DNA of 64,000 nucleotides, taken from an uncultured Spirochaetales bacterium. GTDB lineage: Bacteria > Spirochaetota > Spirochaetia > Sphaerochaetales > Sphaerochaetaceae. The stretch covers positions 1-64,000 of the forward strand of contig CALXRC010000001.1 in the NCBI GenBank assembly GCA_944390865.1. Reading direction: 5' to 3'. The notes under the pieces were generated by a model that made no database searches, was not told the DNA's origin, and saw nothing but the letters and a program-made list of their open reading frames with translations. Below, in pieces: positions 54,782-62,648 of this stretch (its first letter is position 1; the number at the start of each line of letters is the position of its first letter). Both the position numbers and the translations under genes were made by a program.

Positions 54782-56089
<1,308 letters not shown>

Positions 56090-56129
56090 CAGTCAACAGA
56101 CTTCCACAAGAAGTCAGCTGTGATTCACG

Positions 56130-56166
56130 CAAGCATGTGGAAGGACTCCTTTCACATGCTTGTTTT
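56130..56166 (+). terminator. intercistronic hairpin between mglB and mglA
   Basis: CAAGCATGTG and CACATGCTTG form a perfect 10-bp stem around a 13-base loop, followed by TTTT. It probably terminates part of the transcripts, leaving the binding protein more abundant than the ATPase. Confidence 0.6.
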
Positions 56167-56211
56167 GGCTTAGAGGAGCAATCCGAACGGCATAAGGAAA
56201 ACAATTAGAAT

Positions 56212-57705
56212 ATGGACAATACAATACTTGAGATCAGGAATCTGTCCAAATCTTTTGCAAAGAACAAAGTCCTTGACGGCATAAACCTGACATTGGAGAA
56301 AGGTTCTGTCCTCGGCCTCATGGGAGAGAACGGAGCAGGAAAATCCACAATGATGAAGTGCCTTTTCGGAATCTATGCAAAAGACGAGGGACAGTTCATC
56401 TTTGACGGCCGTCAGATTAATTTCAACAGCCCCAAAGAAGCTCTGGAAAACGGCGTGGCAATGGTTCATCAGGAATTGAACCAGTGCCTTGACAGATCCG
56501 TCACAGACAACCTCTTTTTAGGGCGCTACCCCACAAAGGGCGGAATTATCGATGAGAACAAGATGCTGACGGAAGCAAACAAGCTCTTTGCTTCTCTCAA
56601 CATGAACGTCAACCCGACGACAATTATGAGAACGATGTCCGTTTCCCAGCGTCAGATGGTTGAGATCGCAAAGGCTGTAAGCTACAACGCAAAGATCATT
56701 GTTCTCGATGAGCCTACCTCATCACTGACAGAACGTGAAGTGAAGAAACTCTTCTCCATTGTCAACGAGCTTAAGGCAAAGGGTGTTTCCTTCATCTACA
56801 TTTCTCACAAGATGGATGAGGTCTTTGAAGTCTGTGATTCAGTAGCTGTCCTGCGCGACGGCAAGATGATCATGGTCAAGAAGACGAAAGACACGAACAT
56901 GAATGAGCTGATAAGCGCCATGGTCGGACGGTCTCTGGATAAGCGATTCCCGGATGTTGACAATATACCGGGAAGAGACTATCTGGAAGTAAGCCACCTG
57001 TCAACGAAGTTTGATCCAAAGCTTGAAGACATTTCCTTCACCGTCCGCAAAGGAGAGATATTCGGACTTTACGGTCTTGTCGGCGCAGGAAGGAGCGAGC
57101 TGCTCGAATCAATGTTCGGAATAAGGACAATTGCTTCAGGACGCCTGATCCTTGACGGCAAGCCGCTGCGCTTCCGCTCGTCAAAGGACGCAATGGATTA
57201 CGACTTTGCGCTTGTCACCGAAGAGCGCAAGCTCAACGGAATGTTCGGCAAGGATACAATACGCTTCAACACTGTCATCACAAATCTTGAAAGCTACAAG
57301 ACTCACAAGATGCTGAACAACAGGCTCATGACTGATGCCGCAAACAGGCAGATCAGGCAGATGAATACGAAGTGCGTCTCCTGCGATGAGCTGATCACTG
57401 CCCTCTCCGGGGGCAACCAGCAGAAGGTCATCATCGGCAAGTGGCTGGAGAGGGAGCCGAACGTATTCCTGATGGACGAGCCCACACGAGGCATTGATGT
57501 CGGCGCGAAGTACGAGATCTACCAGCTCATCATTGAAATGGCAAAGAACGGCAAGACAATCATCGTCGTATCCAGTGAGATGCCCGAGATTCTCGGAATC
57601 ACAAACAGGATCGCGGTCATGTCGAACCACCGTCTGGCCGGCATTGTTGAAACAAAGGAAACCAATCAGGAAGAGCTGCTGCGTCTTTCTGCTATGTATC
57701 TGTAA
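56212..57705 (+). CDS. mglA: galactose/methylgalactoside ABC ATPase MglA
   Basis: Double ABC ATPase of the CUT2 type, 497 residues. The first domain has Walker A GENGAGKSTMMKC and Walker B IIVLDEPTSSL; the second has a degenerate Walker A (GLVGAGRSELLES), a second signature SGGNQQKVIIGKW, and VFLMDEPTRGIDVGAK. The mix of one canonical and one divergent site is normal for this class. AAGGAAAA precedes the ATG. Lies between the binding protein and permease. Confidence 0.94.
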   Translation: MDNTILEIRNLSKSFAKNKVLDGINLTLEKGSVLGLMGENGAGKSTMMKCLFGIYAKDEGQFIFDGRQINFNSPKEALENGVAMVHQELNQCLDRSVTDNLFLGRYPTKGGIIDENKMLTEANKLFASLNMNVNPTTIMRTMSVSQRQMVEIAKAVSYNAKIIVLDEPTSSLTEREVKKLFSIVNELKAKGVSFIYISHKMDEVFEVCDSVAVLRDGKMIMVKKTKDTNMNELISAMVGRSLDKRFPDVDNIPGRDYLEVSHLSTKFDPKLEDISFTVRKGEIFGLYGLVGAGRSELLESMFGIRTIASGRLILDGKPLRFRSSKDAMDYDFALVTEERKLNGMFGKDTIRFNTVITNLESYKTHKMLNNRLMTDAANRQIRQMNTKCVSCDELITALSGGNQQKVIIGKWLEREPNVFLMDEPTRGIDVGAKYEIYQLIIEMAKNGKTIIVVSSEMPEILGITNRIAVMSNHRLAGIVETKETNQEELLRLSAMYL

Positions 57706-57717
57706 AGGGAGGAGTAA

Positions 57718-59391
57718 ATGGCAAACAACATGACAAATGTTCCGGCAGCTCTGGACGAAGATGTAAAAGTCAGGCAATACATCACCAGACTTGCTGAATT
57801 GAGAAGCACCGGCGTGACCCGCGTGACAGATCTGAAACAGCAGATCACTGCCGCAAAGAAAAGCAAAATGCTGGCCGAGGAGGCAAAGGCAAAGCTGATC
57901 GAAGACTGCAGGAAGCAGATTGCAGTTGCTCAGGAAGACGCTTCAAGGCACAAGGGCGAGATCGATGCACTTACAAAAGAGGCAGTTGCCTATGTGAACA
58001 AAGCCAGTGCTGAAATCGAAAAGCGTGTTGAAGAGACAGAGAATGCCAATATCGCACGTTTCAAGGCAGAATATCAGCAGCAGATCCAGAAGATCAAGGA
58101 AAACACGGCTCAGAGGATCAGCAAGATCACTATTGCGGATGCGAAGGCCAGAAAGGAAGAAATTGATCAGATCCGCTATGAGGAGAAGTCTGCCCTCTTT
58201 GATGCAAAGAGCCACTATACAGCAAATGTTGACAGGGCCAAGGCCGCAAGAAATCAGGCCTATGTCGACCATGTGCAGACTAACCGCACACTGCGCAACG
58301 GCAAGACAAAGTTCAGCGAGGACATGAAGCTGAAGTGGAAGGATTACATCAACCGCTTCAAGTTCTCAACCTTCATGCTGAACAACGGCCTCTATATTGC
58401 AGTCCTGATCTTCTTCATCGTCTGTGTGGTCGTGGCTCCGCTGCAGGGAAGAGGTGCCCTGCTCTCGCTGCCGAACATTCTGACCATTCTTGAGCAGTGC
58501 TCGACCAGAATGTTCTATGCACTTGGCGTAGCCGGCCTGATCCTGCTTGCCGGTACCGACCTTTCAGTCGGACGAATGGTTGCTCTCGGTTCTGTCACCA
58601 CAGGTCTGCTCCTGCACAGAGGAACAAACATCGTGCGAGTATTCGGAGCAGAGCCCTGGACCTTTGATGCAATCCCCATGGGACTCAGAGTCGTGATCGC
58701 CCTGGTGCTGTCAATTATCTTCTGTGTGGCCTTTTCCAGTTTTGCCGGCGTCTTCACTGCAAAGCTGAAAATCCATCCGTTCATCTCAACGCTTTCCACA
58801 CAGCTCATCATCTACGGCCTTCTGTTCTTCGGAACAAGCGGAACACCTGTTGGTTCAATTGACAGTTCCATCAAGGATCTTCTGGGAGGACGCTGGACTC
58901 TGGGTGTTCTTGGAGGACAGGTGATAACATTCCCGAAACTGATTGTTCCTGCCGCAATTGCCTGTGTGGTCGCATGGTTCATCTGGAACAAGACAACCTT
59001 CGGAAAGAACATGTACGCAGTAGGCGGAAACAGCGAGGCGGCTGCCGTATCCGGAATTTCAGTATTCAAGGTAACGATGGGAGTCTTCATCATGGCCGGT
59101 ATCTTCTACGGCTGCGGAGCCTTCCTTGAAGCCTTCAGGGCCAACGCTTCTGCCGGTACGGGCCAGGGCTATGAGACAGATGCCATCGCAGCCTGCGTTG
59201 TCGGCGGAATCTCGTTCAACGGCGGTATCGGAAAGATCGGAGGCGCAATCATCGGCGTCATCATCTTCACCGGTCTGACATACTGTCTGACCTTCCTCGG
59301 AATCGACACAAACCTCCAGTTTGTATTCAAGGGTGCCATCATCATCGCAGCTGTCGCCCTGGACAGCGTGAAATACCTGAAGAAGAAATAA
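57718..59391 (+). CDS. mglC: galactose ABC permease MglC with long N-terminal coiled-coil extension
   Basis: The C-terminal 340 or so residues are a complete MglC/RbsC-type permease of the CUT2 family (LAGTDLSVGRMVALGSV, HPFISTLSTQLIIYGLLFFG, the KTTFGKNMYAVGGNSEAA loop, NGGIGKIGGAIIGV). The first 210 residues are different: a highly charged stretch rich in Lys, Glu, Gln and Ala with heptad-like patterning (LKQQITAAKKSKMLAEEAKA ... IEKRVEETENANIARFKAEY), no membrane segment, then a membrane entry near residue 222. Standard MglC has about 336 residues. The extension should lie in the cytoplasm. GGAGG precedes the ATG; no internal break is seen, so it is one protein. Confidence 0.88.
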   Translation: MANNMTNVPAALDEDVKVRQYITRLAELRSTGVTRVTDLKQQITAAKKSKMLAEEAKAKLIEDCRKQIAVAQEDASRHKGEIDALTKEAVAYVNKASAEIEKRVEETENANIARFKAEYQQQIQKIKENTAQRISKITIADAKARKEEIDQIRYEEKSALFDAKSHYTANVDRAKAARNQAYVDHVQTNRTLRNGKTKFSEDMKLKWKDYINRFKFSTFMLNNGLYIAVLIFFIVCVVVAPLQGRGALLSLPNILTILEQCSTRMFYALGVAGLILLAGTDLSVGRMVALGSVTTGLLLHRGTNIVRVFGAEPWTFDAIPMGLRVVIALVLSIIFCVAFSSFAGVFTAKLKIHPFISTLSTQLIIYGLLFFGTSGTPVGSIDSSIKDLLGGRWTLGVLGGQVITFPKLIVPAAIACVVAWFIWNKTTFGKNMYAVGGNSEAAAVSGISVFKVTMGVFIMAGIFYGCGAFLEAFRANASAGTGQGYETDAIAACVVGGISFNGGIGKIGGAIIGVIIFTGLTYCLTFLGIDTNLQFVFKGAIIIAAVALDSVKYLKKK

Positions 59392-59496: not shown

Positions 59497-60432
59497 ATGA
59501 AGAAAAGTCCAATTGAAAACGGTCAGTTAGCTGAATACCTGAAGAAAATGGAAGATGACAGCAAGGCTGTATACCTGCTCAGCGGAGGGCAGGCCCGCCT
59601 GACTGTCGTCAGCTCAACACATATTGTCAACCAGATGAAGGCCAACCACAGACTCGGCCTGCTGGAGACATACATACTCGGACAGGCCTATACGGCAGGC
59701 CTGCTGCTTACCTCTACAATCAAGGGCAATGACAGAGTCATCCTGACTATCGAGTGCGGAGGACCTGTGAAAGGCCTGAGCGTTGAAGCCTGGGCCTGCG
59801 GTGCAGTGCGCGGCTATCTGCTGCAGAACCCAATCCCGCTCACAGAAGAGCTGAAGAGTCTGGACACATCCATGCTTTTCGGCCCAGGATTCATTACGGT
59901 CAGCAGGCTGCTTGAAGGAAGCAAGGAACCTGTGAGCGGCACCGTGATGATGCAGTATGGGAACATTGCAAAGGATCTTGCCGTCTATTTTGATGAGAGC
60001 GAGCAGACGCCCACCCTGTTCTACATTTCCCTCCAGTTTGATTCGAAAGCTGAAGTGACCGGTGCAGGAGGCCTTTTCATTCAGGCAATGCCGGGCTGCA
60101 GCGATGAGACTCTGGCCAGTCTGAGCAGCAAGGCCTCAGCTTTGTCGAATCTTGGCAGGGCTGTCAGCGAAGGAAAGACAGTGAGCGACTACATCGAGGC
60201 TGAATTCGCAGCCTTTTCTCCTGAAAAGCTTTCCGAAAGCTTCGTAGCCTTTTCCTGCCCGTGCACGAGAGAGCATTTCCAGTCATACCTTTCAAAACTG
60301 CCACAGAAAGAAAAAGATGAGATTCTTGCCGGCACCTTCCCGCTTGAACTCGAATGCTTTAACTGTGGAACTGTATATTCATTTACAAAAAGCGAAGTGG
60401 AAGCGCTTTTTGAGAAGGAGAAAGACCGATGA
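59497..60432 (+). CDS. hslO: redox-regulated chaperone Hsp33
   Basis: Zinc-dependent redox-switch chaperone that holds unfolding proteins during oxidative stress. The 311-residue protein has the conserved N-terminal fold (GQAYTAGLLLTSTIKG, GGPVKGLSVEA) and the C-terminal zinc centre formed by SCPC and CFNCG (C-x-C and C-x2-C). It overlaps the rlmKL gene by four bases (ATGA). No Shine-Dalgarno sequence is visible before the ATG. Confidence 0.93.
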   Translation: MKKSPIENGQLAEYLKKMEDDSKAVYLLSGGQARLTVVSSTHIVNQMKANHRLGLLETYILGQAYTAGLLLTSTIKGNDRVILTIECGGPVKGLSVEAWACGAVRGYLLQNPIPLTEELKSLDTSMLFGPGFITVSRLLEGSKEPVSGTVMMQYGNIAKDLAVYFDESEQTPTLFYISLQFDSKAEVTGAGGLFIQAMPGCSDETLASLSSKASALSNLGRAVSEGKTVSDYIEAEFAAFSPEKLSESFVAFSCPCTREHFQSYLSKLPQKEKDEILAGTFPLELECFNCGTVYSFTKSEVEALFEKEKDR

Positions 60433-62648
60433 TCTATTTCGTCCAGGTTGCTGCCAACCAGAATGATCTGGTGGCCAGAGAAGCCGAAAAGGCAGGTGCG
60501 TCACAGGTAAAGGCCGTGTCCTCCGGAGTGCAGTTTTCCGGAGACCTTGAAGTGGGATACCGCTTTACAATGACAACAAGAGTGGCGAGCCGTGTTCTGC
60601 TTGCCCTCTTCTATGATGACAGCATAGATGATGCGGATGAGTTCTATGCACAGTGCACGGCTCTCAACTGGGAAGATTTTCTTTCCCCTGAGCAGAGTTT
60701 TCAGGTCACTGTCACCGCAAAAGCCTGCAACTGGCTGAAAAACAGCCATTTCGCGGCACTCAGGCTCAAGGATGCGATTGTAGACAGGATCAAGGAGAAG
60801 ACAGGAGGACAGCGTCCTGATGTCGACACAGAGAATCCTGACTTCACATTTCATGTTCACATCAAGGGCACAAGAGTAATCATTTACATCGACTTTTCCG
60901 GAGAGGGCCTTTACAAGAGAGGCTACCGCTCTGCAGATCCTGAGGCCGTGCTGAAAGAGCATCTGGCCTCTGCCGTGATTTACAGAAGCGAGTGGTACAA
61001 GAGCGTGCTTGACGGCCAGATTCTGCCCCTGATGGATCCTTTCTGCGGAATCGGAACAATCCCGATTGAGGCAGCACAGATCGCAGCACAGATCGCACCC
61101 GGGCTGACAAGGAAGACCCCATACGCATTTGAGAAGCACAAGACCTTCGATCCTGATCTGTACAACAAAGTCCTGGATGAGCTGTCGGATGAGGCTGAAA
61201 AGGCACGCGGCAGGGATATCAGGATTTATGCAGGCGACATCAGCAGGATGAACATAGAGCTTGCAAAAGCAGCCGCGCTGAAGGCAGGCGTCGCTGATTA
61301 CATCACGTTCACAGTGAAGGATTTCACAAAGTACACGGAAGCTGACGTGCCGGCAGAAAAAGGCTGCATCATCACTGACCCTCCTTACGGCGTGAGAATG
61401 GCTGATGTTGATGTGAAGACACTGTACAGCAGGATTGGCACTCAGCTGCAGAATCTTTTCAAGGGCTGGAGGGCATCCATACTGTGCGCAGACAGCCAGC
61501 TGCTGTCCAATATAGACATGAAGCCTGACAGGACAAACACTGTATTCAACGGAGGGCTGCTGTGCCAGCTGGCTCATTACAAGGTCTTCACCGATGAGGA
61601 GAAGCAGGCAATCATAGAAAAGGCAAAGCAGAGAAAGCAGGAGCGGCTTTCTGCCCCGCTCTCTCCCGGAGCCCAGATGGCTTACAACAGGCTTGTGAAG
61701 AATCTTGCGGCAATCAGGCCCGTGATGGAAAAGGAAGGCGTCACCTGCTACCGCATTTATGATGCGGACATGCCGGAATACAGTGCTGCAATTGACATGT
61801 ATGAAGGCAGATACATCAATCTGGCTGAATATGCGCCTCCGGCAACCATTGATCCGGAAGACGCGGAGCGCCGCCTGGAAGAGCTTGTGCTTGCCACTGA
61901 AAGGGCTACAGGCATTGATTATGAGAATATCTTTGTAAAGCAGAGAAAGGAGCAGAAAGGCAAGAACCAGTACAAAAAGCTGGGAAATGTCGACAAGTTC
62001 TATATCGGACATGAAAACGGAGTGGCCTTCCTGCTGAACTTCACAGATTATCTGGATACCGGAATCTTTCTTGACCACAGGCCGATCAGGAAATACATTC
62101 AGGAGCACGCAGAGGGAAAGAGATTCCTCAACCTCTTCTGCTATACGGCAACAGCAAGCCTCAATGCAGTAAAGGGCGGTGCTGTCAGCACGACAAGCGT
62201 GGATGCAAGCTCAACCTATCTGGACTGGGCTGTCGAGAACTTCAAGCTCAACGGCTACTCGTCGGATATCGGCAACTTCTTCTACCGCAGCGACGCTGTC
62301 CAGTTCCTCTGGGACACATTCGAGCGCTATGATCTCATCTTCTGCGATCCGCCTACATTCTCAAACAGCAAAAGCCGCGGAAACTTTGATGTCCAGCGCG
62401 ATCATTCAAGGCTCATTGATGCAGCCATGATGCACCTGGAAAAAGACGGTCTCATGATTTTCAGCTGCAACTACAGACGCTTCAGGCTGGATGACTATGT
62501 GACTGAAAAGTACGCAGTAGAGGATATCACGCAGCAGACAATCGGAGCAGATTTCGAACGTGATGAGAAGATTCACAAGTGCTATCTGATCAGACATAAG
62601 TTCAGGATCGCGAAAGAGACCAGGAAAGTCATAAAGGTGAAAAAGTGA
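60429..62648 (+). CDS. rlmKL: bifunctional 23S rRNA guanine-N2/N7 methyltransferase RlmKL
   Basis: A 739-residue protein joining two methyltransferases that modify 23S rRNA (m2G2445 by RlmL, m7G2069 by RlmK in Escherichia coli numbering). After an N-terminal THUMP domain, the first catalytic part has MDPFCGIGTIPIEAA and TDPPYGVRM. The second has FLNLFCYTATASLNAVKGG and FCDPPTFSNSK. Both SAM sites look intact. It overlaps hslO by four bases and the next gene by one. Confidence 0.93.
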   Translation: MIYFVQVAANQNDLVAREAEKAGASQVKAVSSGVQFSGDLEVGYRFTMTTRVASRVLLALFYDDSIDDADEFYAQCTALNWEDFLSPEQSFQVTVTAKACNWLKNSHFAALRLKDAIVDRIKEKTGGQRPDVDTENPDFTFHVHIKGTRVIIYIDFSGEGLYKRGYRSADPEAVLKEHLASAVIYRSEWYKSVLDGQILPLMDPFCGIGTIPIEAAQIAAQIAPGLTRKTPYAFEKHKTFDPDLYNKVLDELSDEAEKARGRDIRIYAGDISRMNIELAKAAALKAGVADYITFTVKDFTKYTEADVPAEKGCIITDPPYGVRMADVDVKTLYSRIGTQLQNLFKGWRASILCADSQLLSNIDMKPDRTNTVFNGGLLCQLAHYKVFTDEEKQAIIEKAKQRKQERLSAPLSPGAQMAYNRLVKNLAAIRPVMEKEGVTCYRIYDADMPEYSAAIDMYEGRYINLAEYAPPATIDPEDAERRLEELVLATERATGIDYENIFVKQRKEQKGKNQYKKLGNVDKFYIGHENGVAFLLNFTDYLDTGIFLDHRPIRKYIQEHAEGKRFLNLFCYTATASLNAVKGGAVSTTSVDASSTYLDWAVENFKLNGYSSDIGNFFYRSDAVQFLWDTFERYDLIFCDPPTFSNSKSRGNFDVQRDHSRLIDAAMMHLEKDGLMIFSCNYRRFRLDDYVTEKYAVEDITQQTIGADFERDEKIHKCYLIRHKFRIAKETRKVIKVKK

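Follow-up and report, generated by a model that had tools for sequence, protein, structure and literature searches.

The window analysed here, a stretch of 64,000 nucleotides from an uncultured Spirochaetales bacterium of the gut, carries on its forward strand adjoining genes for a binding protein, a double ATPase and a permease (positions 54881-59391). This is a layout of the mglBAC type, and by sequence comparison the system is assigned to the galactose/glucose-type importer branch. The first gene, mglB (54881-56089), encodes a sugar-binding protein of 402 aa in which Peripla_BP_4, at residues 12-258, is followed by PF18610 at residues 324-393 (E 9.5e-33, 112.6 bits). PF18610 is the mark of T. 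pallidum MglB-2, a circularly permuted lipoprotein, as described by Brautigam (2016, PMC4990184), and with this domain at its C-terminal end the window MglB is of the permuted MglB-2 ('Type Ic') form. Residues 95-303 of E. coli MglB align to residues 26-263 of the window protein, and the sole trace of the E. coli N-terminal end is a 12-residue match near the window C-terminus (E 0.72). The second gene, mglA (56212-57705), encodes the double-ATPase subunit of 497 aa, scoring 675.7 bits against the NCBIfam MglA model; its alignment with canonical MglA revealed no insertion, and compared with E. coli MglA it has no extra domain. The third gene, mglC (57718-59391), encodes an extended CUT2 permease of 557 aa, which is the subject of the present analysis.

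A separate observation concerns the export signal of the binding protein. The signal peptide of the window MglB has no lipobox cysteine (SVFAQGGAE), and the same was found for the MglB of two further loci (L116, 434-1636, and L117); the T. pallidum and Agathobacter forms carry the cysteine. A suggestion made in PMC4990184 is that the permuted topology arose through membrane tethering, and permuted MglB proteins that are free of a lipobox argue against such an origin.

The mglC gene is one open frame of 557 codons with zero internal stops. Twelve bases separate the end of mglA at 57705 from the mglC ATG at 57718, and between them lies the ribosome-binding site GGGAGGAG (57707-57714, forward strand). 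Both the start codon and an equivalent purine-rich run before it are kept among relatives. The first-pass annotation had pointed to the single frame and the good ribosome-binding site as signs of a real fusion, and this is borne out. A rival possibility is that the working permease is a shorter MglC beginning at Met203, with the extension cleaved or untranslated, and 33 of the 41 relatives do have an in-frame ATG at this residue. However, the best purine run ends a mere 2 nt upstream of this codon and three close relatives have TGG at the position, whereas a strong and conserved ribosome-binding site precedes residue 1. The extension itself is under purifying selection: near pairs give dN 0.055 with dS 0.31 and dN 0.010 with dS 0.30, and dN/dS is ~0.03-0.18 among near relatives with unsaturated silent sites. 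Poor spacing, lack of universality and selection on residues 1-215 led us to reject Met203 as the start, and a shorter working permease is highly improbable.

The permease part of the protein, residues 216-557 (58363-59388, forward strand), is conventional. PF02653 (BPD_transp_2) spans residues 253-546 (E 6.5e-31; 107.9 bits against a cut-off of 26.8), and residues 211-557 match the NCBIfam MglC model over nearly its entire length, so the earlier description of the last ~340 residues as a complete CUT2 permease stands. The MglC equivalog NF007014 scores 284 bits, which is below its cut-off of 386, yet it is the best family for the window protein. In the predicted structure, a model of modest confidence, the permease part resembles HmuU, BtuC and their relatives (Z 13.2-16.6). 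E. coli-type MglC aligns with the window protein from residue 211 onward, and the MglC proteins of E. coli, Fusobacterium and Cetobacterium (336-339 aa) have 8-11 residues before the permease; standard MglC therefore lacks the extension, as had been claimed. The E. coli system shares with the window the gene order mglB-mglA-mglC, PF02653 and ~41% identity over residues 211-557, but its MglC is 336 aa long with ~8 residues before the permease, and its MglB is canonical where that of the window is permuted.

The N-terminal extension (residues 1-215; 57718-58362, forward strand) is conserved in relatives and has no hydrophobic segment, the maximum 19-residue hydropathy being 0.29; the first membrane segment begins at ~216. 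It is charged, as the first-pass annotation had noted, with 43 K/R against 33 D/E, and contains one proline and three glycines. In permeases of the BtuC/HmuU fold the N-terminus is cytoplasmic, and given the BtuC/HmuU-like fold predicted for the permease part the extension is therefore very probably cytoplasmic as well, in agreement with its initial placement.

The same annotation had described this region as a heptad-like coiled-coil stalk, which the analysis does not uphold. The hydrophobicity of the extension, averaged over the alignment, shows no significant 3.5-residue period (p 0.05-0.78 by segment), and a classical heptad coiled coil was rejected on this basis. AlphaFold2 modelling of the extension alone, from 41 sequences, gave a mean pLDDT of 91.8 (89.1-91.8 over five models) and a pTM of 0.77, and the full-length MglC model is concordant with it. 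Helices are predicted at residues 16-30, 33-48, 54-135, 142-192 and 199-213, all joined by short loops; the last of them (58312-58356, forward strand) is an amphipathic-looking junction helix just before membrane segment 1. On these models the extension is helical and no simple stalk, and a classical coiled coil could not be demonstrated. It is predicted to be a compact helical domain, with a conserved base (residues ~15-32, 78-95 and 150-214) from which two deletable antiparallel hairpins project, and the base is predicted to sit where membrane helix 1 ends.

Conservation peaks at the membrane-proximal base. Column entropy is lowest at residues 181-200 (0.56-0.64 bits), and the most conserved base motif, QAYVDHVQTNRTLRNGKT, occupies residues 180-197 (58255-58308, forward strand). 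N189, R190, R193, N194 and G195 are invariant in the 41 alignment rows, and the polar and basic positions conserved in the base comprise R29, K48, K79, K87, N94, N189, R190, R193, N194 and K196. The least conserved stretches are the N-terminal tail and the regions near residues 51-70 and around residues 131-140.

Natural deletions were found in the hairpins. The first arm (residues 33-77; 57814-57948, forward strand), formed in the model by helices 33-48 and 54-135 with a loop at 49-53, is removed in two Treponema MglC proteins, one deleted for residues 33-77 (L126) and the other for 33-76 (L127), and both deletions straddle the predicted loop. In a third treponeme case (G245) the extension profile matched only from position 77. 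The tip of the second arm (residues 117-149; 58066-58164, forward strand), between helices 54-135 and 142-192, is deleted in the 531-aa MglC of a genome of T. pallidum size (L114), again straddling a predicted loop, at 136-141. When placed on the predicted structure, each natural deletion takes out a single hairpin and does not reach the base, which argues for a conserved base with two deletable arms rather than a stalk of fixed length. Two helical arms trimmed independently by different lineages around one conserved base make a neat structural case.

These features bear on the idea that the arms pair between neighbouring transporters and so cluster MglC, or tether it to the envelope. Long helices, of the kind predicted here, often self-associate; however, the heptad pattern is not significant, arm lengths vary and arms can be lost, which makes such a role unlikely. 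Tethering to the flagellar region, another early proposal, fares poorly, the window genome having no flagellin and no match to the chemoreceptor signalling domain. Among 25 extension-bearing genomes of the window's family, flagellin was found in none (0/25), and no chemoreceptor signalling domain scored above cut-off, with one marginal match at E 8e-4. The extension is therefore not a general flagellar or chemotaxis tether, and attachment of the arms to flagella or chemoreceptor arrays is likewise unlikely.

Searches against known families returned little. With residues 1-215 as query, nothing in Pfam or NCBIfam exceeded its curated cut-off (the best was DUF7286, at 16.7 bits against 27) and no match was obtained in a sequence search of the PDB. 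Fold searches with the extension alone gave a best Foldseek E of 0.044 and a best VIA Z of 9.2, both within the noise of helical bundles, for which Z under ~13 is uninformative. A viral structure library yielded no match to the extension at E <= 0.001, and viral contigs held no relatives of it. Among the papers searched, none connects an N-terminal extension with MglC or with CUT2 permeases, and the main text of PMC4990184, searched for 'permease' and 'extension', makes no mention of one; the extension is apparently undescribed so far.

Among the weak structural matches of the full MglC model were the SPX domains of XPR1 (Z 7.0-7.6). SPX domains occur on phosphate transporters, and that of XPR1 is likewise an N-terminal cytoplasmic helical domain on a transporter, at a weak Z of ~7. 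By analogy, the extension might sense a cytoplasmic ligand, such as an anion or a nucleotide, through the conserved polar and basic residues of its base. However, the two domains have no sequence similarity, SPX is not among the listed matches when the extension is searched alone, and a Z of this size says little for a helical bundle. The match being weak and listed for the full model only, an SPX identity was set aside, and an SPX-like sensing role is a distinctly unlikely one.

How widely spirochaetes share the extension had been left as a question, and it is clearly not unique to the window genome. Full extended MglC is encoded in 12 of 41 near genomes (66-100% identity), and 45 of the 297 Spirochaetia genomes scanned carry the extension. 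When 84,980 species were searched with exact peptides from spirochaetes, queries that would not pick up Firmicutes, 43 loci were returned, all in spirochaetes, including Bullifex porci and Breznakiella homolactica. In a draw across the phylum 67 of 393 genomes matched the extension, two of them by chance (G356 and G462, from another class, where the weak match is a short frame of an unrelated protein). Carriers thus comprise Treponemataceae, Sphaerochaetaceae-type spirochaetes, Breznakiella, the genome of T. pallidum size and one gut Firmicute. Every full extension match that was inspected is fused to a permease. Matches over the extension obtained by tblastn in Subdoligranulum and Shinella were discarded, the alignments having run back into the upstream mglA.

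The Firmicute is Agathobacter rectalis, where a plasmid carries mglB-mglA-mglC with a 549-aa MglC (WP_015515560.1). Against the spirochaete profile its extension reaches 69.3 bits, and shuffled copies score <=5.8; the plasmid system resembles the window system in having a permuted-type MglB, MglA and a homologous extension on MglC; it differs in that the LRNGK motif is not conserved and the second arm is ~6 residues shorter. This mglBAC is followed downstream (L104, 6292-10551) by genes for a response regulator, a sensor histidine kinase and a further substrate-binding protein, a set possibly for sugar sensing.

In a tree of the permease part only, extended MglC forms one clade (bootstrap/SH-aLRT 100/100) with one label change, and a larger quick tree agrees on a single clade; on these trees the extension is placed as a single gain within the sample. 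One Treponema genome (G534) offers two further forms. At L124 (C49, 3269-4954) there is a second and diverged copy of extended MglC, accompanied by an mglA of its own, a paralogous system. At L123 (C29, 765-2954) an MglA with an internal deletion runs directly, within one frame of 729 aa, into the second half of the extension and then the permease; this could be a paralogue in decay, a natural fusion of MglA with MglC or an error of assembly.

A long permease from outside the spirochaetes was also considered. Mesomycoplasma hyopneumoniae encodes a 604-aa CUT2-like permease beside inositol genes (L106, 4198-6012) which likewise has a charged N-terminal part, of ~280 residues; it scores -5.1 bits against the extension profile, the level of shuffled sequence, and was rejected as a relative. 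The two extensions, unrelated by profile, look independent, and this one may be a separate gain of a cytoplasmic extension.

The extension keeps close company with the permuted binding protein. Among the 297 Spirochaetia genomes, PF18610 is above cut-off in 46, the extension is present in 45, and 44 have both. The one genome with the extension and no PF18610 (G218, L111) has a contig that ends within mglA, and the two with PF18610 and no extension (G215, L113 643-1854; G275, L112 5252-6490) hold an orphan permuted mglB with no adjoining mglA or mglC. Permuted mglB and mglA lie directly upstream of extended mglC in 42 of 43 named loci, the remaining one being on a short contig. We take extended MglC and permuted MglB to belong to one transporter branch, as this gene content suggests, although co-inheritance of the operon alone could explain the pairing.

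The MglB-2 glucose transporter of T. pallidum (TP0684-0686, PMC4990184) shares with the window the operon and the permuted MglB, and homologues of TP0686 are reported to be distributed like those of TP0684, among treponemes and Gram-positives (Brautigam 2016, PMC4990184). The MglC of the T. pallidum-size genome (1,139,633 bp) has a 189-residue N-terminal part and differs from that of the window by the missing second arm tip. Extended MglC is thus retained even in a 1.14-Mb genome.

The peak of conservation at the membrane-proximal base and the confinement of deletions to the arms point to a function of the extension near the membrane and MglA. Binding to MglA was among the first-pass proposals, and the reading that we tentatively prefer, at somewhat less than an even chance, has the base in contact with MglA and/or with MglC on its cytoplasmic face, where it would stabilise or regulate the importer. 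We see MglC as the permease of a distinct mglBAC branch that combines a permuted binding protein with a gained N-terminal cytoplasmic domain. In the MglC dimer two copies of this domain would flank the MglA ATPase under the membrane, and contact of the base with MglA and/or MglC might stabilise the complex or adjust the ATPase cycle, the arms serving as a variable and tolerant surface. The extension could thereby play, in a CUT2 transporter, the part that falls to separate regulatory domains elsewhere among ABC importers. Nevertheless, MglA has no insertion in operons with extended MglC and so no marked partner surface, which counts against contact with MglA, and conservation of the base could also reflect contact with lipid or with some other protein.

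A rival reading makes the extension a docking platform for a distinct cytoplasmic partner, such as a sugar kinase or a signalling protein like HPr, which would couple uptake to metabolism. A large, charged, surface-rich and helical domain would suit this purpose, and HPr was found in 13/13 and HPr kinase in 12/13 of the spirochaete genomes tested; however, both occur equally with and without the extension and are uninformative on a link to it. Moreover, the arms, which would be the obvious binding surface, are variable and deletable, and the operon has no conserved partner gene; docking seems less likely than not.

A bolder reading is that residues 1-215 are an unrecognised cytoplasmic regulatory domain which evolved once together with the permuted MglB and controls the ATPase cycle or senses the energy state; we regard this as possible, if on the doubtful side. 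CUT2 importers make up a large class of sugar transporters in bacteria, and a cytoplasmic regulatory domain built into their permeases or ATPases is not known to us. Were the domain to control uptake, sugar import would have a new point of control in host-associated spirochaetes and in Firmicutes of the gut. On the bolder reading the domain would govern glucose uptake in such spirochaetes, the syphilis agent among them, and in certain gut Firmicutes; T. pallidum is believed to rely on the MglB-2 transporter for glucose (PMC4990184).

Elsewhere in the window, a 535-aa open frame on the minus strand (60501-62108) lies antisense to a 739-aa methyltransferase-like gene (60429-62648) and is probably an artefact of composition.
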